Part shown: piece by piece, positions 14,341 through 55,428 of the stretch
Position numbering within the stretch: the first letter of the stretch is position 1
How the letters are laid out: the number at the start of each line of letters is the position of its first letter
NCBI GenBank assembly: GCA_029964075.1
Contig: CM057136.1
Span: 4,588,001-4,652,000, forward strand
Length of the DNA stretch: 64,000 nt
From: Patiria pectinifera
Lineage: Eukaryota > Echinodermata > Asteroidea > Valvatida > Asterinidae
Reading direction: 5' to 3'
The notes under the pieces: generated by a model
Told to the model about the DNA's origin: nothing
What the model saw: the letters and a program-made list of their open reading frames with translations, nothing else
The model's database searches: none
Program-made: the position numbers and the translations under genes

Positions 14341-14405
14341 TTGTAGATGTTTGAGATGCGAGTAAAAATGGGTTGTAGATGTTTGAGATGCGAGTAAAAA
14401 TGGGT
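14341..14405. repeat. 32-bp direct duplication
   Basis: TTGTAGATGTTTGAGATGCG plus AGTAAAAATGGG occurs twice in tandem without mismatch, indicating a recent duplication in PDE intron 1. Confidence 0.9.
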
Positions 14406-14823
14406 TGAACAGAACTACATGTACATGTACCTACCGGTATGACTGTGAGAATGATTGTTGTGCACATGCATGTATTTCGTTGGATGTAGATGATGAATTG
14501 ATCCACAAAAGTGTTTACACCTAAATATTGCCTGATCACTTGATCAGTCAGGAATCAGATCTTGCCCAAAAGGGGTATCAACATGCCGGATTAGCCTTGG
14601 ATTGTATCCTTATTGTGCTTGTGTTGACTCTAACTGTTCACTGCTCTGACAATCCCCTTGAGGGATCCAATGTAAACATGAAGTTTCAAGCAGTGTACAT
14701 GTACAGTACCAAGACATTTGCAATTGATTAACTACAAAATGTATTATGTTATAGTTCAATATTCAATACTGACTTTCATGTATTTGTGTTTCCCTCCTTT
14801 TTTATGTCGCTTGATGAATACAG

Positions 14824-14913
14824 GTATTTGCTCAGTATCTCCAGTTTTGTGGAATTGGCATCAATAACGCAAGGATTTATGAGCGGGCAACTATGGAAAT
14901 AAGGCGAAATCAG
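14824..14913 (+). CDS. PDE5/PDE11-like: PDE exon 2: end of GAF-A and linker helix
   Basis: 30 codons, phase 0/0, with acceptor ATACAG and donor GTGGGC. The product VFAQYLQFCGIGINNARIYE matches the helix that closes GAF-A in PDE5 and PDE11 (the YLxFCGI...NAxxYE pattern). It continues into the long connecting helix toward GAF-B. Confidence 0.93.
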
Positions 14914-16381
14914 GTGGGCCATTGATTCAGGATGTAATGTAAAAATCAACTTGGAACCAAAAGTCCCCTTTATTTCAAGTTACATTTAATTACGATAACA
15001 ATAGATCATTTACATGTAATGCATATTAAAGAGCCAATGTATAATGTGCCAATCATAACAGAATATCAGAGAGGTTAAGTTACAAGTTTTTTGCAAGAAA
15101 GTGTACGCCTACATGTACATGTAGGTGTTGCATCATGGATACGCGTGCAAAATATGCATTGGCAAAGCACATGATGTGCAAATCCTGGCTTGTCGTACAC
15201 AATGCCAAACACATGATTAAGGGAAGTAAAAACCACCTCATTTCTCACACATGCAAAATTGTTAAAGATTGATTTAAAGAAGTTTAATCAGAGTTCACAT
15301 TAACTACTGTCATAATCAATAGACTTGAGAAGATTGTCTCCTTAAACAGAAGTATTTGTCAACATTTTTTAAAAGGTTCGCATACACAGATCCTATGAAA
15401 TGCCTTCCTAAATCCTTTTCCGAGTACGTGATTGGGAACGCAAGGCTTTCAGTACGCGTTGCCGTACACTTTTAGGCAAACTAAACCCCTCTATTAACTG
15501 TCGATTTCGTTATGCAGGGTTTAAGTCTGTGACTCACACCATAAATGATGGCGGAACACAAATCATAATAGCATATATTTACTTTATAAGACTAAAGGTT
15601 GATAATCAAGGATATTATCATTGCTCATGCATGTATACTCAGCTTTGTTTTGAAGGAAATCAAAGAGTTTGCCCCCAGTTCCAGGGCAGTGGAAAAGACT
15701 ACATACATTATTTTTACACAGCAGGCAGAGCTCATTCAACATCTGGGCCCTATTTCTATTGAGATTTCTATTGTTACGTCACTGATTTGAGCAACTGTTT
15801 CCTCTGGGGTTAAACGTGCTTTCACGGTGCTAGAGGGAGGCTCTGTTAGCACAAAATCGGCTCTATGTTAAGCAGCTGTATGGAATTGGGCCCTGTTTAG
15901 CGAGTGTCACAATATTGAAACCAAACAGAAAACCAAAATAGTCGTAAACCCTGTGATTATCCTCATCCAACGTGATAACAATATTTGAAATACTGCACAG
16001 CTGTGCCAAATGATAGCATAAGAATTTGACAGCTGTGCAACCAATTGATTGTGTAAATCCAACATATACTTGTTGTTATTACCAATCGTGTTGTGAAATT
16101 GGCAATTGTAGCATATGTACAAGTGCGGTACCGTACGTATACATGTACGTGGACCTCACATCACACACTCTAAAATTCAAACTGATTATACAGGCACTTA
16201 ACCTTATTAGGATCGTGACAATTCATATAACTTCATTTTCAGATCACTTACATACAGCTCACCGGTAATCGTTTAACTCTTTGAACCGAAAAGAAATTGA
16301 CCAAAAATCTTGAAATATGTCTGACATTAGTTGAATACCGATAGATATTGTTGGATGTTTCTGTCTTTATCTGTACAAAAG
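14914..16381 (+). other. PDE intron
   Basis: GT-AG intron. It carries a small element with GGGCCC-type inverted ends at 15745-15893. The rest has no recognisable gene or repeat. Confidence 0.8.
15745..15893. mobile_element. Small element with GGGCCC ends
   Basis: Ends GGGCCCTATTTC and GAATTGGGCCC. The interior (ATTTCTATTGTTACGTCACT, GGCTCTGTTAGCA) recurs inside 33347-33833, so the two belong to one family. Confidence 0.65.
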
Positions 16382-16519
16382 GTACTGCTGGAGTTGGCCA
16401 AGGTTCTCTTTGAGGAGCAAAGCACGCTATCCAACATTGTGCGACGCATCATGGAGTTGACTGTATCTCTATTGCGTTGTGAACGGTGTTCGATCCTATT
16501 AGTCGATGAGACATCTAAG
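16382..16519 (+). CDS. PDE5/PDE11-like: PDE exon 3: linker helix and start of GAF-B
   Basis: 46 codons, phase 0/0, with acceptor AAAAG and donor GTTAGT. The product starts VLLELAKVLFEEQSTL and continues through CERCSILLVDETSK. The FEEQ...IV..IM...LL.CERCS pattern is characteristic of the GAF-A/GAF-B junction and first strand of GAF-B. It looks closer to PDE11 than to PDE5 here. The in-frame ATG at 16331 is intronic and is not a start. Confidence 0.92.
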
Positions 16520-17823
16520 GTTAGTTGATACCATGTGGATATTCAAAGCAAATACACACCAGTGATTTTAATGCCCTGAGGTATTGCAGTGGTCAGTCTT
16601 CAATACCGACGGGATTATATAGTAATGCACCTGAATTTGTATGATGACAATTGAGGTACATGCATCATATGTTGAGCAGTTTATGCAGTGAAGCAAGGCA
16701 GACTGCTACCATAGATATAAACCCTAGTTCCTGCATTGCATAGATGCAGTAGAGAGATGCAGCCGTGCTGTGCGTGACTTAGCATGCATAGGGAGATAGC
16801 AAAGCAATTTCCAGTGCATTATAATGATACGGCCAATGACAGTGCAAGCTACGCATACACATGGTAGATCATGAATATTTATATGGTTGGTATTTGGAGA
16901 AAAACAAAATTCACATCTGTAAAGGGTGAATATATATAGGCCAGATTGTTTGTTGCTTCTGCTTTTGTTTTATTATTATTATTATTAATTTTATAATTGC
17001 CTTAACTTGTTTGGTTTTGTTTTCTGTTTCTATTGGTTGATTTTTGCAAGCATAATTGTTTAACTCTGCATTTTATGTTTTATTTCATTTGATTGGTTTG
17101 TATGTTCTGTGTTATTTTCAGAGGAATTCAGGTCACAATTTGTTGTAGATCTCAATACTGCTTAAGGTCTCAAATGATTACATTATTTTCACGGCGATGA
17201 AAGCAAGGAATCCAATTGTTCAAAGAAGGAATGTGATTGCGATTTGATTGCGCATTGCTTGATCTTGACCCTGTAGCATTGTTCAGTACAGTAATCATGC
17301 ACGGTACCGGTACATGTACCGGTATGTAAGATTTTCTGAGTGATCTCTTTTGAATATTTAAAATATAAAAAAAAATCATGACTTAGTGAACTGTCATTCT
17401 TCTTTACATGTTGACTTTGTAAGTTCATTTAATTTATTACAACCTCTGTAATGGCCTCAAGGCACTACCCCGGTACATGCGCAATGAAATGAGTTTACCA
17501 TCGGTATACTGTACATGTACGTACATGATATTCTCATTATACCATAACTCATTATGTGATTTGAATGGAACTTAATCCAGATTTTATCCTTGAATCGCTT
17601 ATCGTATGAAATTAGGTACAAATTTTCTGGAAAAACTGCCAAGCATGTACTGTACATGTATGTTATTATGTGACCATAACTCTTAAAAGTTGCATTACCA
17701 ATAATCTTTCTTTCTTTTCTATAGTTATACGTGAATGCAAAATTAAGTTTATCTATTTTGCACTGTACATGTAACAGTTTGATAATCTCCATACTGACAT
17801 AATTTGTTTGCTCATATTTACAG
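16520..17823 (+). other. PDE intron
   Basis: AT-rich, with ATT repeats near 16970-16990 and a TACCGGTACATGTACCGGTA-type palindrome near 17300. No gene recognised. Confidence 0.7.
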
Positions 17824-17859
17824 AGAAGGAAAAATAAGCGCCAGCCAAGCAAAGACACG
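17824..17859 (+). CDS. PDE5/PDE11-like: PDE candidate micro-exon 4 (cassette): basic insert in GAF-B
   Basis: 36 nt, phase 0/0, encoding RRKNKRQPSKDT. The acceptor (TTTACAG) is good but the donor (GTACAT) is weak. Because exon 3 ends and exon 5 begins in phase 0, it can be included or skipped without changing frame. It falls in the variable loop between the first strands of GAF-B, where family members differ most. The basic RRKNKR patch could be a localisation or phosphorylation element, which is inference. It may also be fortuitous; transcript data would decide. Confidence 0.5.
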
Positions 17860-18413
17860 GTACATATACTAACTTGTCTTTTAACCAGCCACCCATCGTA
17901 TCATGCTTGCTGCCTCACACACATGAAGTCACACTGCATGTTTGTATTGGTTTCATCTTGTCTCACTGCCAAATTTGTTGTGTTTGCACTGTCTTGTTGG
18001 GGGATGCATGGAAACAATGAAAGAATTGATCAAATTACCTGGCAGAATCTCCATTCAGTCTGGAATCAACTGTGCAAGACCATTTGCTTTCATATTCAGC
18101 TACATGCAATGTGCTGCTGCTGCATTACATTATGCTAGACCTTGGTAATTAAAATCATAGTTCTGGAAAGAAATTCTTTTTTTTTTCTTTTTTTTTCCAA
18201 ATTTTCAATACAAAAGCTTGCTCTTCAGAGATCCATGCAAAATTGTCTGTTTTCATTCTGAATATCTTTTCTATGCATGATTTTACAGTGTTCACCGGTT
18301 TCATTATCTTCTTATTACATGTACATGTAGCTCTTTGGTAATTTTTTGATGGAAAAGGGTCCATTCTATGTACATGGACATGTGCATGGACATTTGCTGA
18401 CACTTAAAGGCAA

Positions 18414-18866
18414 TATACAACATTCGCAAACATCAAAAAACAAAACTACCAAATTATTATGAAATACCTTACCTGACTGTAAGTGAATAATAGTCTCAAG
18501 CATCCTGTGGTATCATGGCACCTGGTGTGCTTTCCTTTTCTGGAAAAGTGGATTTTTGTATCAATTTCCAACGATCATTGAAAAAACTGACTTTATTCAA
18601 GTACTGCCCCTAATTTACCAAATTTAGTTAGTCCGCATTTTGTTTGCCAATGGTTACATATCCTTGATTGGATGCAAGCCATGCGCTACGGTCTGGTTCC
18701 CTGACCTGACAATTCCCTGACATCTATAAATTGTCCCGTTTCGTCTGGAGTAGGGTCACAAAACTTTAAACAGGTCAGTGTACCATATTTGCCACAAAAT
18801 ACTAACCCCCAAATCCATCCATTTCTGAAAATTACAGCAAAAGCAAATGTTGTATATTACCTTTAA
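18414..18866. mobile_element. TTAA-flanked element, family 1, copy 2
   Basis: Same orientation and internal order as 8653-9179 (shared CACCTGGTGTGCT-like and TTCCCTGACCTGACAATTCC-like segments). TTAA at 18414-18417 and 18863-18866. Confidence 0.75.
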
Positions 18867-19363
18867 ACCAGTCTCAATTTGCACATGTACATGTATGTAT
18901 GTAAACCTAGAGTGACATATTGCACAGGCTTCCTCAGCATGCAGGATGTTATTGAGCTGAAGTGTGTTTCCTGTCAAATGGACAAAAACTTCTTTACTTT
19001 ATAATTGTTGAATTTGAAAAACAAATGACACAATTCTCCATAAAAGTGGTTTAGAAATCAACATTTAATTTTGGACAACATAACTGTCTGATCACAAACT
19101 CATATTTTATTCTAATGTGGTTGGGTCTTAGCCTGTTATACCAGTGCAAATGTAATTTGCTAATTATATTATCAAAGAATAATGACAGGAAATAGTATCT
19201 CTTTCGTTTCAAGGAAAAGATTGTTAATGTTCATATATTAGTGGATCAGTTCTGAAAGTTATATGTGTCACATATGAAACAGGAGTAAGGCAATTTGTAT
19301 GAAATAAAACACCTGTTATCTTTCTCTTTTCTCTATCTTACACAACATCTATGTCATATCTTT

Positions 19364-19582
19364 CAGTGGCATACCCAGGATTTGGCTTTGGGGGGCTCAC
19401 AATTTAAAAAAAAAAAATTGGGGGGGGGGGGGATTATTTTGACGTTGGTGGCGCCACTTACACCCCATTACCTATTATTCTACTCGAAAATAGAACACAT
19501 ACATATCAACAAGGTCAAATCGTGGGACTGAAGAAAAAAATGTAAACCTCTTGGGGCCCCCCCCCCTTGGGTGCGCCACTGG
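19364..19582. mobile_element. Hairpin with AGTGGC.../...GCCACT ends
   Basis: Left CAGTGGCATACCCAGGA, right GGGTGCGCCACTG, with G- and C-homopolymer arms. This resembles a short non-autonomous element common in marine invertebrate genomes. Confidence 0.6.
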
Positions 19583-20090
19583 TACGTTTCAAATAGTTCT
19601 GGTGTTGCCAAAAACACAAGAAATTTAGATAAACATACATTCTTAATTCTTGAAGTTACTGCATTACGTGGATATTACTTATTTTTTTCTTTTCTTTCAA
19701 GAGTATTTTATTAATGTAGTTTTTTGGTTTTCAAATTACAAGTGAACGGCACTTTATGTGTGATTCTTGTATGTTCTCTAACATTCTGAAATATGCCGGT
19801 CCTAAAGTAGCATGAATCTTTGTACACTCATATTTACTTTGTCATCAAACTTTATTTTATTCCTTTCTTTCACACATACCACTGATCTCATTTCATTGAC
19901 ACCGAACATACCGGTACATCATAGTTACTTGTTTTTCACGCTGTTTACCCTTTTCGCAGATCATATTTTCAGTTTTTTGAAGTTTGAAGAGCCAATTCCA
20001 TTTGTGGTGCATGTAATGTCTTGTATTTACTTGTTCAGGTCTTAAAAGGGAAAAATGAGAGAAAAAAATAATGGAAAAAAATGATGTTTT

Positions 20091-20594
20091 TTATACAACA
20101 CCTGAATAAATCCCCGTCATCTGATTGGTGAATTGTAGATCACGTGACATATTATTATTCGGTATAATGCACGGTGCGACCATGCGTTATACCCATGCGT
20201 TATACCGTTTCACTTTGCGCTTGTTCCATGACGCGGTAGTTGATTGCAAAATGCATGCTGGTGTGCGCGTTCAGCGTAGCGCGTATTGTTCCAAAGAGCC
20301 AGCGCTACAGCGTTGGGTTCAAACATTTTCATGAAGGGGTAGTTCAACATCTTTAAAATCAAAATAAATTGTAGTTTATAATTTACCAATCAAATGACGA
20401 GAATTTATTCTGGTGTTGTATAAAACAAATAACGAATGTTTTACGTTCGTGTGATGGAAAGAATAATTTCATTCGGTGACAGATTAAATGTTCTATTCCA
20501 CTCGGCTTCGCCTCGTGGAATAGAACATTTCATCTGTCACCTCATGAAATTATTCTTACCATCGCACTCACAAACATTCGTTATTTGTATAATA
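20091..20594. mobile_element. Two-hairpin element, copy 2
   Basis: Same two-domain architecture as 6811-7402: an outer pair with AACACCTGAATAAATCC-like ends, then ACAAATAACGAATGTTT...AAACATTCGTTATTTGT around a GGCTTCGCCTCGTGG turn. Confidence 0.7.
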
Positions 20595-20950
20595 ACAGTG
20601 TTGGACAAAGCCTGTTTGTTTTGGCTATCACATGATTTGTGGTAAAACATGAAGAAGAAAACAATTCCTAGACCATCCGAGTTGTCATTTAGCATGTACA
20701 TACAGCACATGTAGTGCTGTGAATCTTTCATAAAGTTATGTGTGCGAAATATTTTCAAACAACAATGACTCAAACTGAAACTGGTACTCTAACTTGTTGA
20801 AAAACCAAATTGCATTTGGCCTTCAAACGTGGTACTCTGAGGAAAGCACATGAATGAATGTTAATATGTGAATCTTGTACCTCATCATTGACCATCTTTA
20901 TTGGTATGTACATGTACTGATGAATTAGTGGTATTTTCATGTTCATACAG

Positions 20951-21021
20951 AGCATCTTCTCACAAGTGTTTGAGTTGGGCGTGGATGATCTAGAGAACAA
21001 GGGTCCCAACAATGGAAGCAG
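20951..21021 (+). CDS. PDE5/PDE11-like: PDE exon 5: GAF-B variable segment
   Basis: 71 nt, entering in phase 0 and leaving two bases (AG) to be completed by exon 6 as AGT. Acceptor ATACAG, donor GTGAGT. The product starts SIFSQVFELGVDDLE. FSQVFEL matches the strand written as KFTKSFEL in PDE11 and SSVFHME in PDE5. The following region is low in conservation, as in the family. Confidence 0.85.
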
Positions 21022-21256
21022 GTGAGTACGTAACACTACAATGTATCTGTTCAGTGTCAGAATGTTTTTGCCTCGCACCCCCAAAATAAATTATAGAAAC
21101 TCTTACTATGTTGACGTTTAGTAAAGTCGCTCAGGTCAGATTTTGAAGAATGACGTTAGCATTGTACCGGTACATGTATTATTTTCCTTTTTGACCCACA
21201 AATTGGTGTTGCTGGTCTCTCTAGATCTGCTGGTCCTAAATACATGTGCATTACGT

Positions 21257-21283
21257 GTACATGTACATGTACATGTACATGTA
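21257..21283. repeat. ATGTAC microsatellite
   Basis: Perfect (GTACAT)n run, the longest instance of the palindromic TACATGTA sequence that is scattered through the first 27 kb. Confidence 0.9.
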
Positions 21284-21592
21284 GATGTATGACAAAGTTA
21301 CACAGTTTTCAGACCGGCATTCCAGATTCATGCCAAACCAAATTGAATTAAGAGCAACTTGAGTCAACCCCAATTGGTTTTAGTTTCAAACTGACAAATG
21401 CGCTTTGCATGGAAGCTACGCCTTTTGCATTGCATGGTTTTGTTTTTTGTTCAGCGTAAATACGTTTCTTCGCGCCATTCCTTGAGATTTGTTTTGTTTT
21501 TCAGTGTTTAATTTAGTTCTGTGAAGAAGCAGCAAGAGACTGGCCAGCAACATTAAAGTCGGCAAACATAGCTGATAAAACCTTGAATTTTA

Positions 21593-22562
21593 GGCCTTTT
21601 CACACTATCTCCGTTTCGAACCGTGTTGAAACCTACCCGGATCCAACCCGGTTCAGCCCGAGTATTTTTCGACACGGATCGGAGAGACGCAACGTTCACA
21701 CTGTCCTTTACGAGAACGGCCGCTACGTGAACCGTGTAACGTTCAATCCGGCTACGGCCCACGTGTATTCACATTACAAATTCTCGACACGGATCGCATT
21801 CGGCACAGGGCGCTGCGATGATTTTCTCAATCCCATAATGCATTGCGACGCACGAGGCTGCGCTGCGCTTAGCTTACGGACAGGCCGGTGTTCAGCGTGA
21901 ATTTACTACTCTATGAAATACGGACTCATTGGTAGTATTGCGCATGCCTATTAGGAGAAGGACCTGTCACGTGAAAGGGTTTGGCCAATAATAAGAGAGT
22001 AAAGGAATCCGATTTGGGAGTCCGATTTTTGTATGACACCAGCGCAGCTGCGTGCAATATTTCCATCCGGTCATTTCGTTAGACGATTCGTTCTATTTAA
22101 CATTAGAAATGTACTTTTTTGGGGTACATTTTGCAGACCTAAATACAAGCCCAGACTCGGTAAAGGATGCTCCATACACCGATACATTATTGGATGATAA
22201 TTAGGGAGCAATTGTTTCGTGATCGGTGTTGTGACGGCGATAGTGGTGGAAGGAAATATTATGCACGGCGTGTCAGATTTTCGGTAAAATGTCGGCCTCA
22301 ACTCAACATGGATCGGCCGTGAGTGACTCAACCCCGGGCGGTTCACACTATCATTTTCGACACGGTTCAGGCCGAAAAATGCAATTTCGATCCGGGTTGA
22401 GATTTTCAACCCTGGTCCCTCCCAGGGTTGATTTCGATCCGGCTAGAGCACGCTACCCGGGTCGGAACCGGGTTGAAATGTTAGAAGTGGGAAAAGGGTT
22501 GAAAAAAATCTCGGGGTTGGAACCGGTTCCAACCCGGAGATTTTGGACAGTGTGAAAAGGCC
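21593..22562. mobile_element. PIF/Harbinger-like element with TTA duplication
   Basis: Inverted ends GGCCTTTTCACACT and AGTGTGAAAAGGCC are flanked by TTA on both sides (21590-21592 and 22563-22565). The interior is GC-richer with repeated CGGGTTGAA/CGGATC motifs. No transposase. Confidence 0.75.
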
Positions 22563-22957
22563 TTATGACTTAAAGAAGGAAAAGGACAATAAAAACGGGC
22601 TACTAAAGGCTTGTGAAGAGATAGCACATTATTAATGCATGGGCAATTCCAGGGGAAGTGTAATGTCCGTGACGGAGCCAATTAACCATGATGCCTTATC
22701 AATGATTCAGAGAAATGATCCAAAACTCTTAGTCTGTAATCTCCATTACCATTACTACATGATGGATTTGATCATGTATAAGATTTGAAAAATACATTGT
22801 CACATGTACTCACTGGCTATCTGTCTTGGACATTGCATAACGCTGGAATTGCCCACATGCATCATGGCCATTTTCTTGCTGCTCACATCACTTATGCAGT
22901 TTTCACCCATCAATCAATGCTTTATAGAGAAAACAGTACTGGTACATGTACGTAAGA

Positions 22958-23614
22958 CAGGGTGAGTCAAAAAGAAAGTGACCGAATTTGAAAAATTTTT
23001 CCAAAATATGTGGCTTGGGAGACATAAAGTAACTGTGAAAATTTCACGTAATTTGCATATTCTATTCCCAAGTTGTGTCTATTTCAATAAAACGACCACA
23101 AAACTCGGCTGTCCACCACTGATCATCTACCCTTCTACGAAATGATGAATACCCATTGAATACAATGAAACATGGCTATTTTCCCAGCTCGATGAATGAA
23201 TGAGAACTTGCAAAGGAAAACGTACACAAGTCACCATCAATACGTCAGAAAAAAAAGGGTGGACTTGTTCCTCTTACTCAAAACACAAAATCTGACAGTA
23301 AAAATAATGTTTCAGTCTTCATTAAAATAATTAAAATCTTATTTGTATTGGACTGCTTGTGTGTTATCTGTAATTCTATCTCAACTCAATACCTAATCCA
23401 ATTTGGCATTCCATGGACAGCTATAAAATGGTAAAACGTGCATAACTTCTGATAGCATGGATCAATTTCAGTAATTCTTTTTTTTTGTTTTGAGATGAGT
23501 GGAAGAACATGCTCTTTTAAGATACAGGTGTATACTTCATTGGTGTTTCAAATTTGATTGCTTTTTAAGGAAATAAATCATTAATTCAGGTGACTTTCCT
23601 TTCGGCTCACCCTG
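22958..23614. mobile_element. Mariner-like element with CAGGGTGAG ends
   Basis: Left CAGGGTGAGTCAAAAAGAAA, right inverted CAGGGTGAGCCGAAAGGAAA. The end sequence is typical of Tc1/mariner-type elements. TA is present on the right flank only. Confidence 0.65.
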
Positions 23615-24234
23615 TACTTTCATTGCACCTTCCGTCAAACAGTACCTGCGCGTAAGCTGCAAAGGTCTGTTGCCATGTATTGTGTGATGGCCAAAGGTCA
23701 CACTTTCTAATTACCATACATGTACATAAATCTGCATGATTGAGTTCTGCTCAGAATGAGAACAACATCTTAAACCAAAGGGCTCTAGAGTCCTTCCGAC
23801 CGTCTGCAACAGTTGATCTTTCAAAGTCTTGCGGGTATTGAACTTTAACTTTTTCATTTAGTTTATTCAAATCTCAGAAATAATTTGGTTTGGCGTGATT
23901 CTAGAACTACAGTCTGAAACAGGAATAAGAACTCAATCATCATCATCAATAAATTGTATTGTACTTCAACTTGTGTATGCCAGAATTGTAATTCTCTAAC
24001 TCATGCTGCCTGTCAATCCTATCTGTGTTGTGTAAATTAGACACTTGGGCTATTTGACAGGCATGCATAATCCAACAAATATTGCAGGCTTGGTAAAAGG
24101 TAATACACTGCACTACTGAATGCCTTTCATCATCTTAATGACAAATCAAATAAAAGTGTTTTGAGATCCTCAGTTTGTCCTATTTACAGTGTGTTGTGGA
24201 ATACTGAATATAGCTTTGTCTGTTTGCTTTTCAG

Positions 24235-24295
24235 TCCTGAGTGTTGTTTTCCAATCCACATTGGAATCACAGGGTATACAGCAACTACTGGTGAG
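24235..24295 (+). CDS. PDE5/PDE11-like: PDE exon 6: GAF-B core strand/helix
   Basis: 61 nt, completing the split serine codon and ending in phase 0. Acceptor TTTCAG, donor GTGAGC. The product PECCFPIHIGITGYTATTGE contains the G-I-x-G-x-x-A-x-T-G-E pattern shared by GAF domains of PDE2/5/6/11. Confidence 0.9.
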
Positions 24296-24588
24296 GTGAG
24301 CTATAAGACAGGTTGCCTCAGGTATTCTGTCCTTTATACAGCAAGCTGGGCAATCAATGTTTGGAATGCATCGGTTTCATATACATGTACACACAGGTTT
24401 TAAATGCAAATGCAATATGCAACTCGGGTTGCGACACATCGTAGTGTTTCGTGAAATTGGGCCCTGGTACCGCACCCAATATGTTGTGAAATATACAATA
24501 TATATATGTGTATTCAAAACTACTTTTCGTTGTTTTATTGTTGGTTTAAAGAGCATTTCCATTAATCATTACTTTCTCTTTTTCACAG
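24296..24588 (+). other. Short PDE intron
   Basis: 293-bp intron. Positions about 24420-24466 match one terminal segment of the inverted-repeat element at 41034-41638 (AACTCGGGTTGCGACAC and TTTCGTGAAAT), so a fragment of that family sits here. Confidence 0.7.
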
Positions 24589-24636
24589 ACTTTGAACATT
24601 GCCGATGTCTACAAGGATTCTAGGTTTGATCCGAAG
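24589..24636 (+). CDS. PDE5/PDE11-like: PDE exon 7: GAF-B (LNIADVYKDSRF)
   Basis: 16 codons, phase 0/0, acceptor TTCACAG, donor GTGAGC. TLNIADVYKDSRFDPK is the GAF-B counterpart of the family motif N-I-x-D-A-Y-x-D-x-R-F. Confidence 0.93.
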
Positions 24637-27600
24637 GTGAGCCGTTACATTTGAATCTCAGATTTAGTGAATCTAGACCAACGATTTGTATTAGACATAA
24701 CTTCACTGCATCAATACATATCATTAAACACTGTGTAACCAATCATAGCTGAGGAGGTAAAGGAGCCCAGATAAGCAGGATTCCTGGGATAACTTTACCT
24801 CTTCTGGTTTTACGGCAATGTGAATATCATTTAATATCCTGATCAAGTTTAGACATGGTTCCAGACGTTGCTGTGAGGTTGACCCAACTTTCTTGTCTCA
24901 TGGTGTATATTAGCTCCATGGTATAATCAACAGCTGCTCAAAAGTCCATACCTGGCCAAGATGTAGAGCTTTCTAGCCTGGCCCACCAGGCCACATGTGT
25001 ATAGGGCATAAAGTGAGGTACAACTGAAAGTGTAAACGTACATGTAATAATGTGTAAGCTTAGTTCACATGAATACGTATTTGTCTTCAAGCAAACTTGA
25101 ATCCTTGATCCTGAATAGTCATTCCATGGCAATAACATAAGTATTGGGCCCCATGTTGCAAGAAGCGTATATTCCATATTGAAAGGTGCGTATTGAGCAC
25201 TTTCCTTGGATGCAAGCACTTTACTGCTGCACACACTTGTAATAGGATTACGGTTTAAATGCGACCACAGCGTAAGCATTGCATCTTTACTGTGCGTTCA
25301 AGTTTGTAAATGAAAGTAAAATAATGAAGTGTGTCTGTGTTCCACATGCCACTGAGCCTTTTGCCTCATGGCATATTCCACTCAAGCTCTCTGGATACAA
25401 TAACACATCAATTATGCAATAATGCATATATTAAATACATGGTGCTACACACAGGTAAATCTGTGTGCAAGATGTTAGGGCCATCACTTATACACTGACG
25501 TTAGTAAGGCCATGCATGACTGGTTCATGTTTAAGGCATTAGACCAGAGGACTATTTATCAGTATATAAGCACATCTTGAACCCAAGACAAATAACAGTG
25601 ATAAGATCGTTGCCTCAATCTGTGATGTAAAGTCAAAGACTAATGCATGAGTGTCTCTTTGAACTCTGGAGAAGGGTGAGCTCATATTATGTATTAATAT
25701 GCATACACGTCTATGCACTGTGCGTACAGGGATGGTAGCATTGTCATGGTCCATAGCAATTAATGTAATGGGTTGTGTGTCTAAAACTTGTACAGTAATA
25801 TCAGTTTAGATCTCCATTCTAAATCAGAAGTGTCACTATTGAAGCACAATGATCATGTATCAATATATTCATTGTTACATTGTGCCTTTGTTAGTGTAAT
25901 TTCATTGGTTGGCCGGTCATACCGGCACATGTCTGTCCTGAAAATGGCTGTTTACTTTGTGTACACTGTGTTGCATATAAATTAACTCCTATACACTACG
26001 TTGGGCAGGCATGTAGGGCGCGCGTATCGGGCAGCCCTGTGCGCCAGGTGACTGAGAACTGCAACCGCTCAGTCTCATGTCTGGTAGGAAAGCTGGCAGT
26101 AATCAAAAGGTTAGGTTACTGTGCAGTAATCTAATTTATTTAATAATAATGATAATTTAAACTTTATATTGTCTGCTTCCATTTTTTTAAATAATCAAAA
26201 GTGCATTACATTGAAAAACTTTGACCAAAAAAATTGCTGTTAAAAAATTAACTTAAAAATACATCCATCTACCGGTAGTTAGCATAAAAAGAAACATAAT
26301 ACACAACACCAATCCAGAGCAGGTTAATGTGGCAGCCATGATGCGAACATGCATTTAGAGTACAGTTTGGGTCAGCAGCAGATGATAAAAATCTACAGAA
26401 ATACACTTACAACTGTCAAATCTTCACAAAAGTCACAAAGCCTATGGTATATGTCAAAAACAAACTGAGATAGAAATAGATTTAGAAATGTGACTGTATG
26501 ACAAATTTTAAAAAGTGGGAGCTACACGTACATCAATAGCGCACTCTTACATAGTAAATTATAACTTTATAAGCCATTATGTTTTGACTTATTGGCATGA
26601 TATACATTGTAACAGAAGATTTGTTGACTGCTGTGATGTGGGACGTGACGGTTTTAACCCCCTTGGGACGCATCTACGTATGTGGCGCCCTCGGCTTGCG
26701 TTGGGTGCTATGGCCATATCACACATTACAGCAGTCCGTGATTGTTAACTGGTCAATTAACTCTTTTGTGTTGATTTAAATTATGTGTAAAGGTGCACAG
26801 CTGGTATGTGTGCATATGATTGCATGTACAGGTTCAAATACCAATACTAATTATATCAATCAATAATACAACTTTTATGGGCATATTGGTAGTTCTATGT
26901 CATTTGCTCCTGGTGTATAGCTGATGTTTTGTTCAACTTCAGACCCTATTGAGGCTCTGTGTTTGACCCAAGTCAGACCCACGATTTGTGCAACCACTTT
27001 CACACTAGCAAGAAACCAACATGGCTCCTACATGGGCCTGGTGCTTGGTCAGTGTGAACCGTATGCATTGTCAAGTCATGCTGGATCAGATTTGGTTCAG
27101 CTTATGGTGGACCCAATGTTGATATCCACACGGGTTTACATGGTAGGGTGGAAAGCCTGTTTTGTGTTGGTGAATAGGCCACATATCTTCAACAGGAAGC
27201 TGATATGATTTTACAAATGTATAGTGTGAATTGCTGGCTAGGGCTGAGTCTGATGGAGTATTCAAATTTCCATTTAGTTGAATTTCGCAATGCTCTTTTC
27301 TTGGCACTGTGCCAACTACTGGTATTGGCATCAGCATTACTACAATGTCTCTTGCCTGGCAAAGTAATGCATCACATTCACAACAACTACGTGCATGAAA
27401 GTGGGGGGGGGGGGGGTGTTGGCTGGCTAGTTTTAACAAAACACACAATGAATGCCACAAGAAGAGAGAAGCATGTCATACTGTAGTGAATGACTATGGA
27501 AAGTACAGGTATAATCAATCACGTTTAAAAACCAGGTTGCCACTGCAAACATGTACCGGTACGTGTATGTTACAAAATAAATCCTGACGTTCAATTACTC

Positions 27601-28671
27601 CAGACATCACTGCATGTCACCCCACTTAGAGTATTGTTAGACACAGTATGACCACTGTGCACAATTAACATATCGCGGTAGAATTGCTTGAACGCAGCTT
27701 GTGAAATATTGTCCAATTACATGAGATACAAAATATACGCGGAATGCACAAAATCTGAAACAAACAAAAGTTAACGTACAAAACTCCTAGGGTTGTCTGA
27801 GGGGCGTGGCTAACTGGCAAACGGCGATAGGCCAATTGGGAGGGACCACTGGGAGTCTCCTGCATGCATTGCTGACAGTAACCAAAACTTAAATACAGAC
27901 GCGTTTCATCATTTTTATGTAGACCGCGCAATAGAAATGTTAATTTATTAAATATTATTATTATTACTGCGGTCAGCTATTCATACTCTTCAAACCATAG
28001 AGCAACCTTGTTCTATGTTCAAACTAATACCAGGTTGCATATGAAGGGGATATAGATGTTGGATTGTTTTACCAGGGTAGAGCCCCTCAACTCTGGTCCC
28101 GACCAGGGCTGAGTTTTATCTGTGTTGAGCACTGGACTTGTGAAGATGCTGTCTTGGATTGTTGCTAATGTGAAAGGGGTTGCCAGAATGTCACTGTCAG
28201 GGTTCAGCATGAACCCATGTCCAACATAGAGATTGTAGTTTGTGTGAATGGGCCTTACATTGTAGATGAATGTTCTTATTGAACATGACCTACATGTAGC
28301 CCAAGAAATGAACACAGCATAAATAGTTTTGTGTCATTCAAGCTACTTGTCTAGAGTATAATATTTAACACTTGGTCAAACTCATTTGAGGATGAACCTA
28401 GCCCTGAGAAGACCCTTCCCTTGCCCCGCCCTTTTGAGTCCCTCCTTTCCCCTCCCCATTATGCTTGAGGGTCATTATACTTGAGAACTACCAGTACTAG
28501 TCATGAGGAATTAACAAAGTATGGTAATATTTCCTGTCATGTGAAGTTCCATGAAGTTGGCCCCTGATATTCAAGTCCATTAATCACTTCTTGCTGGCAC
28601 ATTCAAAATAGATCTTAATGTGAAATGTACGTGTGCATATTTTTACCATTGATAATTTGGATGCTTTGTAG
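24637..28671 (+). other. Longest PDE intron inside the recognised part
   Basis: About 4 kb. Half of a hairpin-type element (related to 39843-39955) lies at about 25316-25385. Segments at about 26930-27130 and 28060-28280 share TTTCACA(C/T)TAGCAA in opposite orientation and may be arms of a large degenerate element. A G-run lies near 27405. The ACCGGTA/TACATGTA palindromes largely stop after about 27.6 kb. Confidence 0.65.
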
Positions 28672-28815
28672 ATTGATGAAGAAACAGGGTATAAAACACG
28701 CCAGATGCTGTGCATGCCCATCAAGAATGCCTTTGGATCTATACTAGGAGTCATCCTATTGGTCAATAAGCAAGACGGTACACCCTTCAATAGGAATGAT
28801 GAAGACATGTTTGAG
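28672..28815 (+). CDS. PDE5/PDE11-like: PDE exon 8: second half of GAF-B with NKFDE motif
   Basis: 48 codons, phase 0/0, acceptor TTTGTAG, donor GTATGG. The product runs IDEETGYKTRQMLCMPIKNA through VNKQDGTPFNRNDEDMFE. TGYKTRQMLCMPIKN is near-invariant in the family. NKQDGTPFNRNDE fulfils the NK-x(n)-F-x3-DE signature, so both GAF domains keep this motif. Confidence 0.96.
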
Positions 28816-29543
28816 GTATGGAGTTATGATCAGTGTGAATATAGTGCACTCAATAGTGAAGATATATTGATTTTGTTCACACTAACCACATGGAATAAGT
28901 ATGCATGTGTGGACTACCTCTGTCAAATTTGATGCGTGTTGTCTTAAGAATCACCTGACTAAAGATAGTTGCTTCATGTACATACATTTATATCTCATGA
29001 CTTTGGACAAGCACATAGATAGTTGCATAAATAGGTTAAGTAAATATGGGTTAGAATGGCATCAAAACGACGGACTATCTTCAGACCAGACCAGATCCAT
29101 TGAAGGTTCTGCTGACTATTGAAGCGAATAAACCCTGCTTAATAAAGCAGAACTTGTGCTCCTTGTTGGTATACTTCATGTGTTAACACTGATGATTAAC
29201 ACTGCTCATCCAGAGTGATACAAACGCAGGTAGACAATAGAAAAGGAAAGCTGCAGCCCTCATTTTCTTTTGTCTACCTGTGTTTTTATGGACTGGGATT
29301 TGTCTTTCATGGTTAACCCTGTCATTATTGTGGTTGTAAGTGCAGAATTCTCTGGTGAGCAGAGCCATGAGTTTGGTACAGGCCTGCATGGGATGATTGT
29401 TGTTTTTCTCAACGCTGATTAAATCTTTGTATGTTGCCAGACAACATGTACTTAATGTCACATTTAAGGAACTTTCAACCAATGAGCTTACCATATGATC
29501 AAATTGTGGATCAGTTGTATTCTCTTTCTTTCCGATACGACAG
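28816..29543 (+). other. PDE intron
   Basis: 728 bp. An imperfect hairpin near 29190-29290 has TGTCTACCTG pairing with CAGGTAGACA. No gene recognised. Confidence 0.7.
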
Positions 29544-31308: not shown

Positions 31309-31359
31309 ACATTGTCATACCATGCTACAGCACCGCGTGAAGAGGCCATCAGATTAAAG
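31309..31359 (+). CDS. PDE5/PDE11-like: PDE exon 10: LSYHATA linker to catalytic domain
   Basis: 17 codons, phase 0/0, acceptor CTGCAG, donor GTAGGA. TLSYHATAPREEAIRLK corresponds to the conserved LSYHA(S/T) segment immediately before the catalytic domain in PDE5 and PDE11. Confidence 0.95.
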
Positions 31360-31887: not shown

Positions 31888-32034
31888 AAAATGGCCGTTC
31901 CCACGATTACAGAGATTGGACTTGATGATTACTTCTTCAGTGACATGAAGCTATCGGAGGATGAGACGCTGACTGCATCACTTAGGATGTTCATAGATTT
32001 GGATCTGATCAACCACTTTCGGATTAACTATGAG
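31888..32034 (+). CDS. PDE5/PDE11-like: PDE exon 11: start of catalytic domain
   Basis: 49 codons, phase 0/0, acceptor TTGCAG, donor GTAAAT. The product includes EIGLDDYFFSDMKLSEDET and then SLRMFIDLDLINHFRINYE. FSD...LRMF.DL.....F is the first helical subdomain of PDE5/6/11 catalytic domains. The last 19 nt (32016-32034) and the donor itself are the first copy of a ten-unit 55-bp tandem repeat. Using any later copy as donor would add a frame-breaking segment with a TGA at 32059-32061. Confidence 0.95.
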
Positions 32035-32565
32035 GTAAATCAATCAGAGTGGTTGAATTGATAGTTGAGTCTTTCGGATTAACTATGAGGTAAATCAATC
32101 AGAGTGGTTGAATTGATAGTTGAGTCTTTCGGATTAACTATGAGGTAAATCAATCAGAGTGGTTGAATTGATAGTTGAGTCTTTCGGATTAACTATGAGG
32201 TAAATCAATCAGAGTGTTTGAATTGATAGTTGAGTCTTTCGTATTAACTATGAGGTAAATCAATCAGAGTGTTTGAATTGATAGTTGAGTCTTTCGGATT
32301 AACTATGAGGTAAATCAATCAGAGTGTTTGAATTGATAGTTGAGTCTTTCGGATTAACTATGAGGTAAATCAATCAGAGTGTTTGAATTGATAGTTGAGT
32401 CTTTCGGATTAACTATGAGGTAAATCAATCAGAGTGTTTGAATTGATAGTTGAGTCTTTCGGATTAACTATGAGGTAAATCAATCAGAGTGTTTGAATTG
32501 ATAGTTGAGTCTTTCGGATTAACTATGAGGTAAATCAATCAGAGTGTTTGAATTGATAGTTGAGT
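32016..32565 (+). repeat. Ten-copy 55-bp tandem repeat carrying the exon 11 splice donor
   Basis: Units start at 32016, 32071, 32126, 32181, 32236, 32291, 32346, 32401, 32456 and 32511, with no length variation. Each contains the exon end TTCGGATTAACTATGAG followed by GTAAAT. Units 1-3 have AGAGTGGTTG; units 4-10 have AGAGTGTTTG. Unit 5 alone has GTATT for GGATT. The array therefore arose from the exon-intron boundary and spread as at least two sub-types. Confidence 0.98.
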
Positions 32566-32795
32566 ACCGAGTGTATAAAGCATGGGAAGTATCTCTGCCA
32601 TGAGGTTCACATATTGCAGGCTGTTAACTCCTTGCCGATAAAGAAGTAATGATGTGAACCATGGATTCTGCTTAGGTTCACGGCTACATATGGAAGATGC
32701 ATCTGCAACTGCATTTGTTATTATGTACCATGTTATGCACCAACACCTCTAACATACCCCTTTTAACACACTGGTGTACTTTTTCTTTTGTACAG

Positions 32796-32872
32796 CGCTT
32801 TGTGGTTTTTTAAATGGAAGGCGCTATATAAATTTTTAATTATTATTATTATTATTGTTATTATTATTACTG
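32796..32872 (+). mobile_element. LINE/SINE-type 3' tail with ATT repeat
   Basis: AGCGCTTTGTGG...GGCGCTATATAAATT followed by (ATT)n is the widespread 3' terminal hairpin and microsatellite of L2-like LINEs and dependent SINEs in many animals. The AGCGC...GCGCT arms pair. Confidence 0.65.
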
Positions 32873-33921: not shown

Positions 33922-34029
33922 ACCCTGTGTCGATGGCTGCTGAGTGTTAGGAAGAACTACCGTAATGTCAGATACCATAATTGGCGCCATGCTTTCACAG
34001 TCACACAAACTATGTATGCATTGATCAAG
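33922..34029 (+). CDS. PDE5/PDE11-like: PDE exon 12: catalytic HNWRH motif
   Basis: 36 codons, phase 0/0, acceptor TTGACAG, donor [26 protein letters not shown] is followed by [16 protein letters not shown]. The first His of HNWRH is the general acid; the second is a metal ligand in characterised PDEs. The YETLCRWLL(S/T)VRKNYR run across the exon 11/12 junction is especially like PDE11. Confidence 0.97.
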
Positions 34030-35415: not shown

Positions 35416-35525
35416 AACGGAGGTATGCGTCACATACTGTCTGACCTGGAATGTCTAGCGCTGATGGTTGGTTGCTTGTCACATGACCTGGATCACAGAG
35501 GAACGACTAACAATTATCAGATCAT
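35416..35525 (+). CDS. PDE5/PDE11-like: PDE exon 13: catalytic SHDLDHRG motif
   Basis: 110 nt, entering phase 0 and leaving AT to be completed by G of exon 14 (ATG, Met). Acceptor GAATAG, donor GTGAGT. The product begins NGGMRHILSDLECLALM and includes CLSHDLDHRGTTNNYQ. The H and D of SHDLDHRG are metal ligands. The acceptor was chosen at 35416 because it gives N-G-G before the conserved (S/T)DLE, as in PDE5/6. Confidence 0.94.
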
Positions 35526-36421
35526 GTGAGTAGTTGACACGTATCGAGTGGGTCTATGTAAGTCATCACTCAAACTTCATTTCTCTTCCTGTTTGTTTTT
35601 ACTTGAAGCAGAAATCACAAGATCTTTACTTAGAAAGTACTCTAAAGACACTTTGCCAACTGGAGACGTAATTTTGAAACTAACCATTTTCATTAATTCA
35701 TTCATTCATATTGGTTTATTTCAATCCATTATCGCAGTTAAAAACTGAATTGCAATGGATTTAACAAAATAATAAATTATTTAACACCAAATCAACAAAT
35801 TATTTGACAACAATCACCATTACAATTTACACACACAAACAAAAAACCATTAAAGAGGTTGTGGAATGCTCGAAGACATTTCCGTCATTTTTCGGGTGTA
35901 TGTAGCCTAAGGTGTGATGAAATAAAAACTCGTGTATGCTACTGTGCATCGGGAGTCCTGTTTATTACGTCACGATTTACTGTGTTTTGTTTGCTGCCCG
36001 CAACGACGACTTTTACACAGTTGCACGTTCGGGTCGAAACTGGACCTGAAAAACAGCTCTCAAAAGTACCTTTTGTACTCATTTCATGACAGAAACAATA
36101 GTCGTTTTTATTTCATCACACCTTAGGCTACAATTACCCGAAAAATGACGGAAATGTCTTCGAGCATTCCACAACCTCTTTAAAACACGAACAATGACTT
36201 TTACAGTTCACGTGTACATTAGAAGTTGTATGGACCTGAAAGGGAAAGGTGCTTGATGCATGAGCATACGTGTTTTTCAAAGTTACGTTTATCACTTTAT
36301 TTAATGGTTCTTGGAGGTCTAATTTTATTTATTCAGTCATGACAAAGACTTTGTCGTTGAATTTGTCCTCGGATATTAAAATTGTCAATCACTTTGACAT
36401 ATGTCTGTGGTTGTGTAACAG
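35526..36421 (+). other. PDE intron with a TTAA-flanked element
   Basis: Houses the 334-bp TTAA element at 35850-36183. The rest is AT-rich. Confidence 0.8.
35850..36183. mobile_element. TTAA-flanked element, family 3, copy 1
   Basis: TTAA at both edges, with about 40-bp inverted ends running AGAGGTTGTGGAATGCTCGA inward through GACATTTCCGTCATTTTTCG. A second inner inverted pair (TAGCCTAAGGTGTGATGA) gives nested arms. Nearly identical to 55131-55428. Confidence 0.85.
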
Positions 36422-36509
36422 GTCCGAGTCCCCACTGGCCCAGCTCTACTCAACCTCAACTATGGAGCATCATCATTTTGACCAGTGTATCATGATCCTC
36501 AGCAGCAAG
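36422..36509 (+). CDS. PDE5/PDE11-like: PDE exon 14: MEHHHFDQC motif
   Basis: 88 nt, completing the split Met codon and ending phase 0. Acceptor AACAG, donor GTAAAC. The product [20 protein letters not shown] followed by QCIMILSSK is the PDE5-like form of the block (MEHHHFDQC, against LEHHHFNHA in PDE11). Confidence 0.96.
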
Positions 36510-37063
36510 GTAAACTATAATATGTACTTCATCTCAATGTATCCATGGGTTCAGTGTGGTCAGGATGCTGTGTGGCCATCTGTCAGCCTGACTGTGTCAA
36601 GCCATGAAAACAAACAGAACACAGAATCTAGCAGAAATCATTACTGTCAAGCATAAATATCCTTTGATATTACAATCTTTAGTGGGATTTCTTAAAAGAG
36701 CAACTCTGATGACATATTCATTGGCGACATGTTAAGAAATGCAGCCATTTGCCTGCAATCTGTGCCTGTAGGTGCCTATGTTGTTAAGCGACGCCAAACA
36801 AGTCATTTTCTTTTAAAAGGTGATGTGTTTCCATGGATACATGCAACAATTCCTTTGAGGTGAGCAGTATCATATCCCATCCGTACATCATCTGTTCACA
36901 AAAGAGGAAGTACCAACAGCAAAATTGCAGACCGTTTTTGGAGATTCATCAGAGCAAAGCATCACATTTATTTCAAATATTACCTCATTTTAACATTGAA
37001 CTGCTTGATTACTTGTAGCAAGTTGCTTCATATAGGTGTCTAAACTACTGTGATTTGTTTCAG
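36510..37063 (+). other. PDE intron
   Basis: 554 bp. No repeat or gene recognised. Confidence 0.7.
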
Positions 37064-37164
37064 GGCAATGAGATCTTCATGAACCTGAGTGCTGAAGACT
37101 ACAGTCAAGTCATGCGCCTCTTAGAACATGCTATTCTAGCCACTGACTTGGCACTCTACTTCAA
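37064..37164 (+). CDS. PDE5/PDE11-like: PDE exon 15: [11 protein letters not shown] segment
   Basis: 101 nt, phase 0 in, leaving AA to be completed to AAG (Lys) by exon 16. Acceptor TTTCAG, donor [23 protein letters not shown] leads into [16 protein letters not shown]. The A-T-D-L-A-L-Y-F motif is shared by PDE5, PDE6 and PDE11. Confidence 0.96.
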
Positions 37165-38560
37165 GTAAGTCTTCATCTTACCTATTTAACCTGCGTTGTT
37201 ATGCATGTATTATAATTCCAAAGCTGTATGAATTCTTGATGTTTTAGGAAGACTGTGGAGCATATGACTTGCACGCTTCAGGCTCAAGATGGCAGCTGCT
37301 TTGCGGTTTGTCAATTTTGACCCAGCATATTTCACTCGGCTTGACTCGGTTTGTATCTGTTATTTTAGCCATATATTCCATAACAAGCCTCGTGGTAAAG
37401 TCAACTTACAGAAAACACCAAATCATCAAGTAAATACAGTTCTTTCTTTTTTAAAGAGTAATCTCCCTCTCTGTCCAGGGTTGGTGACTGTTGCACACAC
37501 GTTGTCAACCCTCCTGTTCATTTGATTAGATTGAAATTTCACCAAGTCATAGACTATTTGTTAACCTGGCTAGTACATTAGTACAAATGTGTTTACAAGG
37601 TAAACGTTTCATGAGATACGAAACTAATTTTGTTTGGTTTCAATTTGTGCTAATATTAACCATGGTGTAAAGAATTGCAATTGAAATTTTATTTCAATAA
37701 TTTATCATGAAAAAGGGCTTGCTTGTGTTCTCACTAAATTTGTGATGATTTTAGTGAGACTTTTAGTGATAACTGATGATTGGAATTTCATCAGTTATCA
37801 AATGACATGATTTCCTGTGCTGTGGTTTGGCACATTATAAGAGTTCCAAAGGCTATCAATCTCAAGTCAAGCCACAAAAAAATTCAAATGTCTGTGACAA
37901 AGACATTCCTTTGTCTTCAGTGATCACCTGTTACTTACAATAAGCCATTTCGGTATTCCAAAATAGTCTGATGCACAGCAAGATTCAACAATTTTTTTTT
38001 TTCAGGATAACCGCAGCAAATAAATGCACACAAGGCTATAGGGGATGTGGTAACTATGTCTGCATTCTGTGCAACTTTTCGTGCAATCAAAAAGAGATGG
38101 AACTTTCGTTCGCCCAAAAGTTTTGACACACAAGACACCTAAAAACACTTCGCTGTCCAAACTTTTTTGGCAAAATGTTACACTGCAGAACACGATGATC
38201 TCTTCAATTGTGCTGGTACCCCGCTGTGCTTTTGCATGCGTATGATGAAATTTTTATCCCGAAAGAAAAATCAGCAAATCTTGATGTGCACATGCGCAGT
38301 TGGAATACCGAACTCACTTATTGTGACCTGACTTAAATTGCTGTGATTACAACTCTGTACCAAAATCCTGCAAAAACAATGTTCCAAAAAGTCCTTAAAG
38401 TTGAAAAGACTTCAAATGCTCCTAAGAATAAACAAATTGTGTGAACGTTGAATCAGGTTGTTCATTGTGGGTTATATGACTATGCAGGGCTTCATTCCTT
38501 TATGTGAAAGCGATATGTTTGGAGTTCATGTTAATCATTGGGATGAGTTACTTTTTCTAG
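37165..38560 (+). other. PDE intron with an inverted-repeat element
   Basis: Contains the element at 37937-38324. The flanks hold nothing recognisable. Confidence 0.75.
37937..38324. mobile_element. Inverted-repeat element with ACAATAAG ends
   Basis: Left ACAATAAGCCATTTCGGTAT, right inverted ACAATAAGTGAGTTCGGTAT, followed in both by TCCAA and a shared CAAGATT. Non-coding. Confidence 0.7.
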
Positions 38561-38702
38561 GTTCCGAGGGGAATTCTTTCGACTTGTTGAGGAAGGTCAA
38601 GATGATTGGAGTAATGATGATGACAAGGACTTACTACGAGGCATGATGATGACTGCATCCGATGTATCAGCTATCACCAAGCCATGGGATGTACAAAAAG
38701 AG
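38561..38702 (+). CDS. PDE5/PDE11-like: PDE exon 16: metal-binding Asp and ITKPW block
   Basis: 142 nt, completing the split Lys codon and ending phase 0. Acceptor TTCTAG, donor GTAAAT. The product includes [20 protein letters not shown] and [20 protein letters not shown]. The Asp of ASDVS is the fourth metal ligand. The family usually reads T-A-C-D-L here, so Cys-to-Ser and Leu-to-Val are mild oddities. Gln eleven residues after this Asp matches the cGMP-contacting Gln of PDE5, whereas PDE11 as I recall it has Ser. Confidence 0.96.
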
Positions 38703-38890
38703 GTAAATCACGCTAGCAAACTTATCCAATTTAATTAGTTGGGAACCGTTAACATGGTATATGTTTCAGAAGCTAATGTAGAACCACCAACCGGACTCGT
38801 GTTTAACATGAAGCACATGAGTAGAACAAGCTGCTGACATGTCTGATCAGACATTTCATAGTCATACCAGTAGAGTGTCAGATATCAAGG

Positions 38891-39256
38891 GCCAATTCGG
38901 GCGATTCACAATACAGTGCGCCACCAAGAGTTTGCCATGGAGAGTCCATTTTCAAGTTTACGGTCAACAAAAAATGGCCCAGTTGAATGAGTGTCAGTAG
39001 ACAACTTGAGCTAATTTGTGATAGATTGGGGCATAGCGTTCTGCCGCCTTACAAAAACACCGTATTGATGAAAAGCAAAGAAAAGGGCAAACAAATACTT
39101 GAATCATACACTTATGAAACTACTGACCGGAAACGCAGACAATTACAAGCGACCCGTGTTGCGAATTTGTCAACCATCTCCCACAATAAACTGGGAAAAA
39201 TGAACTCTTCATGGCAAACTCTTGGTGGCGCTCTGCATTGTGAATCGCCCAAATTG
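38891..39256. mobile_element. Inverted-repeat element with long arms
   Basis: Left GGGCGATTCACAATACAGTG then CGCCACCAAGAGTTTGCCAT; right end is the inverse with few changes. About 50-bp arms, non-coding. Confidence 0.75.
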
Positions 39257-39842
39257 CATGGGGTAGCTGAGTACTGCAGTTTGCAATATATGTGTACGAG
39301 TCTTTAGGCGGCAAAGTCGCCTCACTAGCTGCGCGGAGGAAGTCGCCTGCTAAGCAGGCGAGTAGATTATTCTTTGCTTGACGAAGCGAATCTTGCGAAT
39401 GCTTGTAGCTACCATTTTTGTAGTTGACAAACAGTGCGTACTCAACTCCGTGTGCGACAGTACCGAGCTTCGCTCCGTTGACTGGTTGACAACTGTGCAT
39501 TTCTAATCTCTTCATTGAGCGGGAACCAATGAAATGCGGGTCAATACCATAAAATGCCCGGAAGTCTGTGCAATAACAAAAACGATATTGTATTGTCATC
39601 CGGGTACTTCTCTAAAGGTATGCATTACGCTGATTTATTTTTACTACTTGGATTCTGATATAAATAAGAATATCCCATATACCAAGCTTTAATGCGTATT
39701 GCACTATTCTAAGATGTACTCAGTATTCCTACTGCATGTACGTGTAATAGGATAACCACTGAAAAAAATGTTATTAATATGTGCACATTCCATCTTAACT
39801 GTGCATCAATGTGCTTTAAGATAAATCATCCCACTCAAGCTT

Positions 39843-39955
39843 GTGGAGCATGGAAAATGTAGTGCGTCTGTGTCCCACATGTGACTCGGCCTTAGGCCTC
39901 GTGGCATGGGGGACACAGACACACTACATTATTCCATGTCCCACCCACGCTCATG
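39843..39955. mobile_element. Palindromic hairpin element with GCCTCGTGG turn
   Basis: GGAAAATGTAGTGCGTCTGT pairs with ACAGACACACTACATTATTCC around TCGGCCTTAGGCCTCGTGG. A half copy is at about 25316-25385 (GTGTGTCTGTGTTCCACATG). Confidence 0.65.
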
Positions 39956-40012
39956 GTATATCTAATATAGTCAGGAGCAATTGGTAAACCATAGTTAAAT
40001 TGATATTTGCAG

Positions 40013-40087
40013 GTTGCACAGCTGATTTTTGGGGAGTTCTTTGAGCAAGGTGATCTAGAGAGGCAACAGTTCAATAAGACGCCAGAG
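40013..40087 (+). CDS. PDE5/PDE11-like: PDE exon 17: FFEQGDLE motif
   Basis: 25 codons, phase 0/0, acceptor TTGCAG, donor GTATGT. VAQLIFGEFFEQGDLERQQF is the conserved EF(F/W)EQGD.ER segment of the catalytic M-loop region. Confidence 0.97.
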
Positions 40088-55130: not shown

Positions 55131-55428
55131 TTAAAGAGGTTGTGGAATGCTCGAAGACATTTCCGTCATTTTTCTGATGATGCACAGTAGCATACACGAG
55201 TCCTGTTTATTACGTCACGATTTACTGTGTTTTGTTTGCTGCCCGCAACGACGACTTTTACACAGTTGCACGTTCCGGTCGAAACTGGACCTGAAAAACA
55301 GCTCTCAAAAGTACCTTTTGTACTCATTTCATGACAGAAACAATAGTCGTTTTTTTTTCATCACACCTTAAGCTACATATACCCGAAAAATGACGGAAAT
55401 GTCTTCGAGCATTCCACAACCTCTTTAA
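55131..55428. mobile_element. TTAA-flanked element, family 3, copy 2
   Basis: Same ends and nearly the same interior as 35850-36183, with a deletion of one inner arm (about 35 bp). The high similarity suggests recent mobility. Confidence 0.85.

Follow-up and report, generated by a model that had tools for sequence, protein, structure and literature searches.

In a 64-kb window of the Patiria pectinifera genome (C8:4588001-4652000, the whole stretch of DNA analysed here, from an assembly of 613.5 Mb in 1020 contigs), we found that the end of one coding exon of a phosphodiesterase (PDE) gene and the 5′ splice site behind it are repeated ten times in a row as the units of a 55-bp tandem array. 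The host gene is, as far as its sequence assigns it, a PDE with GAF domains of the PDE5/6/11 type (class I cyclic nucleotide PDE), and we name it at this level only. The array is a minisatellite, and we think it probable that it is a young one, that its founder duplication spanned the donor by chance, and that it lies in the intron nearly without effect. The features on which the argument turns are listed here, with positions counted from the first letter of the window and a slash marking the junction of exon and intron.

32016 to 32565, + strand: ten-unit array of 55 bp, each unit combining 19 nt from the exon end with 36 nt from the start of the intron (Tandem Repeats Finder, TRF, and unit alignment)
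31888 to 32034, + strand: PDE exon of 147 nt, phase 0-0, preceded by CAG and ending in GAG at donor 1 (limits inferred from homology and GT/AG signals)
32035 to 32040, + strand: donor 1, GAG/GTAAAT, the sole productive donor (sequence and frame reading)
32090 to 32535, + strand: donors 2 to 10, with first intron bases at 32090, 32145, 32200, 32255, 32310, 32365, 32420, 32475 and 32530 (sequence)
32059 to 32061, + strand: TGA, in frame on extension to any of donors 2 to 10 (frame reading)

A preliminary description of this DNA had claimed a 55-bp unit in ten copies that carries the exon end and its donor, and TRF and the alignment of the units agree with it in coordinates, period, copy number and donor sequence. 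TRF reported a single tandem array at 32016-32565 with a period of 55, 10.0 copies, 99% matches, 0% indels and a score of 1072, and among its 14 rows for the window this is the only one with a period of at least 20 and at least 3 copies. The exon part of the unit equals the last 19 nt of the exon at 31888-32034, CTTTCGGATTAACTATGAG, which are also the first part of unit 1. Across the ten aligned units 53 of the 55 positions are invariant; at position 37 units 1-3 carry G while units 4-10 carry T (block pattern GGGTTTTTTT), unit 5 alone has a T at position 7, and units 6-10 are identical to one another. Such blocks fit the copying of neighbours by slippage or unequal exchange, and two variable positions among 55 fit a minisatellite that is either young or homogenised. 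The excerpt available of PMC3618361 gives minisatellite units a range of 15-100 bp, and a head-to-tail array of 55 bp x 10.0 at 99% falls well inside it. No microhomology was seen at the array ends when the flanks were inspected by eye.

The donor GAG/GTAAATCA is unchanged in all ten units. The + strand of the window has 11 copies of the word GAGGTAAAT, ten in the array and one at 38700, and the - strand has none. Pairing of the array donor with the 5′ end of U1 was computed at -6.9 kcal/mol, within the span of -5.6 to -10.3 kcal/mol for ten donors of the gene including this one (the donors were placed by eye). Only 2.5% of the 4120 GT sites elsewhere on the + strand of the window are as strong or stronger, which amounts to about 1.6 per kb where the array has a donor every 55 bp, and the remaining four GTs of the unit reach -4.2 kcal/mol or weaker. 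This ordinary strength makes all ten copies credible candidate donors, equal in sequence, and, as in the human gene IFI6, 10 of 10 units join an exon end to a credible 5′ splice site. The 11-mer donor of the array, GAG/GTAAATCA, recurs at 38700-38710, where it closes an inferred exon of the host gene further downstream (exon end at 38702).

Use of any donor but the first would be costly to the message. All nine extensions, to donors 2 through 10, run into the TGA at 32059-32061 after eight extra codons, and those to donors 4, 7 and 10 are divisible by three yet meet the same TGA, in keeping with the earlier claim that read-through stops there and that donor 1 alone is productive. With donor 1 the exon measures 147 nt and its frame continues into TLCRWLLS...HNWRH of the next exon; with donors 2-10 it would measure 202-642 nt. 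Nonsense-mediated decay is the normal fate of messages whose stop codon lies so far ahead of later exon junctions, and those made with donors 2-10 would usually be degraded. The preliminary description had foreseen a truncation before the catalytic motif HNWRH that would leave a product with GAF domains only; the stop does precede the HNWRH exon in 9 of 9 cases, while such a product seems less likely than decay of the mRNA.

The history that we favour would have begun with the tandem duplication of 55 bp over the exon end and intron start, followed by expansion to ten copies via slippage or unequal exchange. The pre-mRNA would then present ten identical U1 sites, of which donor 1 would serve most transcripts because it closes the normal 147-nt exon. 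Occasional use of a later donor would yield degraded mRNAs, and the array, nearly free of effect in its intron, would drift in copy number. Three readings had been offered beforehand: a neutral minisatellite, a splicing decoy array and a switch tuned by copy number. The minisatellite has held, with neutrality as the best-supported interpretation of it, and decoy or switch behaviour is hypothetical.

A tandem repeat as good as this one does not arise as a chance match, but its position on a donor may well be accidental, and that an array should overlap a donor by chance is to be expected from how common arrays are. We sampled 314 kb, made up of the window, 16 stretches at PDE or GAF loci and 9 stretches at round coordinates, and with a period of at least 20 and at least 3 copies TRF found 13 arrays: the one in the window and 12 in the remaining 250 kb, where the stretches at round coordinates (90 kb) account for 2. 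Extrapolated to 613.5 Mb, this gives about 13,600 to 29,000 arrays. With an assumed figure of about 150,000 donors in the genome, a random 55-bp founder would cover a donor in about 1% of placements, and about 150-340 donor-spanning arrays are predicted without selection; for arrays as long as the one at 32016-32565 the expected number is roughly tenfold lower. We also considered whether a quasi-palindrome in the unit (14 of 20 positions complementary, 1-nt spacer) caused the duplication, and set this aside, as the 314 kb contain a centre of this sort every 2.1 kb or so.

Donor 1 also lies in the loop of a candidate hairpin.

32009 to 32056, + strand: 9-bp perfect inverted repeat, 32009-32017 and 32048-32056, with donor 1 in the putative loop (sequence and RNA fold)

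The RNA fold of 85 nt around donor 1 has an energy of -23.4 kcal/mol and a z of -2.53, with 4 of 200 shuffles as good, and a 70-nt stretch gives a z of -2.46 (3 of 200). The 85-nt stretch has the lowest z among the six junction stretches folded, which are six of the ten junctions placed. Folded as DNA, the stretch gives a z of -1.88 (12 of 200 shuffles as good), and a single unit alone has no structure (RNA z 0.40). Another 42 positions in the 64 kb are starting points of similar inverted repeats (9 bp, loop 20-40). With so many others and with shuffles that fold as well, we do not regard the hairpin as a real regulator, and it is kept as a lead only.

Several observations weigh against the reading of a chance-born and nearly neutral array. 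The chance estimate is rough, since the sample was small and in part biased and the number of donors was assumed. The array is also not an average one: no other of the 13 is as uniform (99%), 4 of them, this one included, reach at least 90% matches by their best row (as does part of a fifth, in stretch L009), and the sole other array with nine or more copies, at 8554-9093 of stretch L025, is a 57 bp x 9.5 array at 82%. None of the ten donors has decayed, as a useless or harmful set could show, and here the array is too uniform to count either way; since 53 of its 55 positions are invariant, it cannot be told from the unchanged donors whether selection has acted. The use of donor 1 is itself something we infer from the normal-sized exon that it closes. 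A local pairing model gives donor 1 a chance of 0.006 of being unpaired, below the 0.031-0.071 of donors 2-10 and the stretch median of 0.017, and with donor 1 less open than the others the model points away from it.

This last point would suit a leaky decoy array, in which donors 2-10 jointly capture some of the splicing into a poison exon extension and copy number lowers PDE output. The ten identical donors of ordinary strength and the same stop in every extension are what such an array would offer. By the principle of exon definition, however, extended exons of 202-642 nt would be at a disadvantage, and the hairpin that would hide donor 1 is weak (RNA z -2.5, 4/200; DNA z -1.9, 12/200; 42 other such repeats). 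In favour of the decoy, a donor-providing minisatellite is known in human, with two downstream units described as in use in the part of PMC4526556 available, and the excerpt of PMC6692358 has the length of the MIR137 repeat correlate with alternative splicing. Taken together, we hold the decoy to be unlikely, with some room left for it. An artefact of assembly, with the animal carrying fewer copies and perhaps one, would be suggested by the identity of units 6-10. Against it, a length of 550 bp lies well within the reach of long reads (if these were used), simple repetition of one segment would not be expected to leave the ordered blocks at position 37, and the 613.5-Mb assembly has one place that matches a 601-bp query over the array (the search scores best candidates only, here 1), so that we find an artefact quite improbable.

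The unit also holds acceptor-like sites. Its five AGs have 10, 6, 6, 7 and 8 pyrimidines among the 16 bases upstream, and the range is 9-13 of 16 at five inferred acceptors of the gene, a comparison confined to these five. The best tract, 10 of 16, belongs to TATGAG directly before the donor, and a splice from a donor to the TATGAG of a later unit would exactly rebuild the exon end and its donor, which is a statement of geometry, not of usage. Each TATGAG/GT could therefore in principle act as acceptor and donor in turn, with the array shortened in the RNA by 55-nt steps and the mRNA unchanged. As the exon end is part of the unit, the rebuilt junction would be exact, and the tract lies inside the range of the inferred acceptors; on the other side the tract is short, other AGs lie just upstream, and introns of 55 nt would be very short, and we rate such stuttering or recursive splicing as very improbable. 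Conceivable micro-exons of 20 nt, also raised in the preliminary description, are unlikely, given a poor acceptor (8 of the 16 bases ahead of the GAG that precedes the 20-nt piece are pyrimidines) and a stop with one, two or three inserts alike. Very improbable, too, in our judgement, is an array tuned by its copy number, in which a hairpin of exon end and unit 1 would partly hide donor 1, the open later donors would drain splicing into the poison extension according to copy number, recursive AG/GT splicing could restore the message, and array length would set PDE output.

The assignment of the host gene comes from the exons around the array, in which GAF exons are followed by PDEase_I catalytic exons, the order of a class I GAF-PDE.

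12294 to 12461, + strand: GAF-domain exon upstream (Pfam GAF, E 1.4e-6)
28672 to 28815, + strand: second GAF-domain exon upstream (Pfam GAF, E 1.2e-4, 23.0 bits, just above the cut-off of 22.4)
31309 to 31359, + strand: putative preceding exon, ACATTGTC...TTAAAG, with donor AAG/GTAGGATC (inferred)
33922 to 34029, + strand: next exon, with the HNWRH motif, frame TLCRWLLS...HNWRH (homology to PDE and paralogues)
35416 to 40087, + strand: downstream catalytic exons, with matches from about 35416, 36420, 37055, 38637 and 40010 (tblastn to the paralogue on C10, L008)

The left edges in the last line are those of the paralogue matches, not exon starts. With paralogous loci of the same genome, catalytic-domain matches start at 33919, 35416, 36420, 37055, 38637 and 40010, and the joined catalytic peptide matches Pfam PDEase_I with an E of 2.7e-59. 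The peptide of the array exon and the next exon has its best matches in the PDB among PDE5 catalytic domains (E 2e-25), then PDE6, PDE2 and others (among the best 60 of 139 matches); the query peptide had a surplus Q, translated from the intron that precedes the exon. The exon at 31888-32034 itself had no convincing match in the paralogue stretches L002-L021. At the point homologous to the start of the next exon, a CAG is present in two of four paralogue stretches (C10 L008 and C15 L006) and absent from the other two (L002 and L007). The label 'exon 11' for the array exon is that of the preliminary description and is provisional.

Other repeats were seen in the sampled stretches. The array at 203-484 of L009 has donor-like words in its units (CCAAG/GTAGA and GCAG/GTCACA), which suggests that minisatellite words of that sort need not sit at exon ends. 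A dispersed family at four loci consists of degenerate arrays with TCACAAGTC, or its complement GACTTGTGA, as the theme of their 10-11-bp words.

L010, 4759-5048 and 7008-7242: arrays on this theme
L014, 433-1004 and 6084-6551: arrays on this theme
L011, 4566-4669: array on this theme
L025, 6340-6980 and 8554-9093: arrays on this theme

A repeat of about 250-300 bp lies at about 35830-36206 and 55122-55532 of the window and at about 8486-8773 of the paralogue locus L014, with about 74-100% identity in the better translated pieces, and is probably a recently active mobile element. On the 3′ side of the array, a stretch at about 32790-32869 contains GGCGCTATATAAATTTTTAATTATTATTATT from 32820, which we take to resemble the tail of a LINE or SINE.

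An array of this kind has precedents. Like the human IFI6 minisatellite, whose unit we take to be about 12 bp, the PDE array is a tandem array that offers several splice donors at one exon. Going by its title, the study of Turri et al. from 1995 reportedly found that the IFI6 minisatellite 'provides multiple splice donor sites'. According to the available part of PMC4526556, two downstream repeat units of IFI6 are used as donors, allowing three mRNA species and so different isoforms, whereas the PDE array, known from its sequence, has a 55-bp unit with 19 nt of coding exon and would lead to a stop from every later donor. Tandem duplication of segments with AGGT has likewise produced splice sites and introns (Rogers 1989, Hellsten 2011, potato RdRp and fission yeast SPOG_01682, as treated in an excerpt of PMC4974935). 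These cases and ours both carry AG/GT and multiply splice signals, and SPOG_01682 has several 24-bp copies in the same excerpt; there, however, the source of the new intron is a segment of an exon or, in the potato case, a piece that crosses the acceptor boundary of intron and exon, and here an existing donor is spanned. The lengths of a variable number tandem repeat (VNTR) in MIR137HG (PMC6692358) and of VNTR6-1 in TERT intron 6 (PMC11830802) go with splicing in the portions of these papers available, and by analogy the copy number of the PDE array could tune splicing too. The literature matches listed, which cover open-licence papers only, include no donor array from either a PDE gene or an echinoderm. 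The kind is thus already known, and what differs here is a 55-bp unit that spans the exon end, ten identical donors, and later donors that are every one non-productive.

As an object the array is ordinary, a minisatellite that chanced to begin on a splice site. As a locus it amounts to a natural test of how the spliceosome picks one of several equal sites, as the ten donors are identical, only the first would give a protein, and with strength constant position alone varies, in steps of 55 nt. If its copy number is polymorphic, the locus would measure what decoy sites cost in a population.
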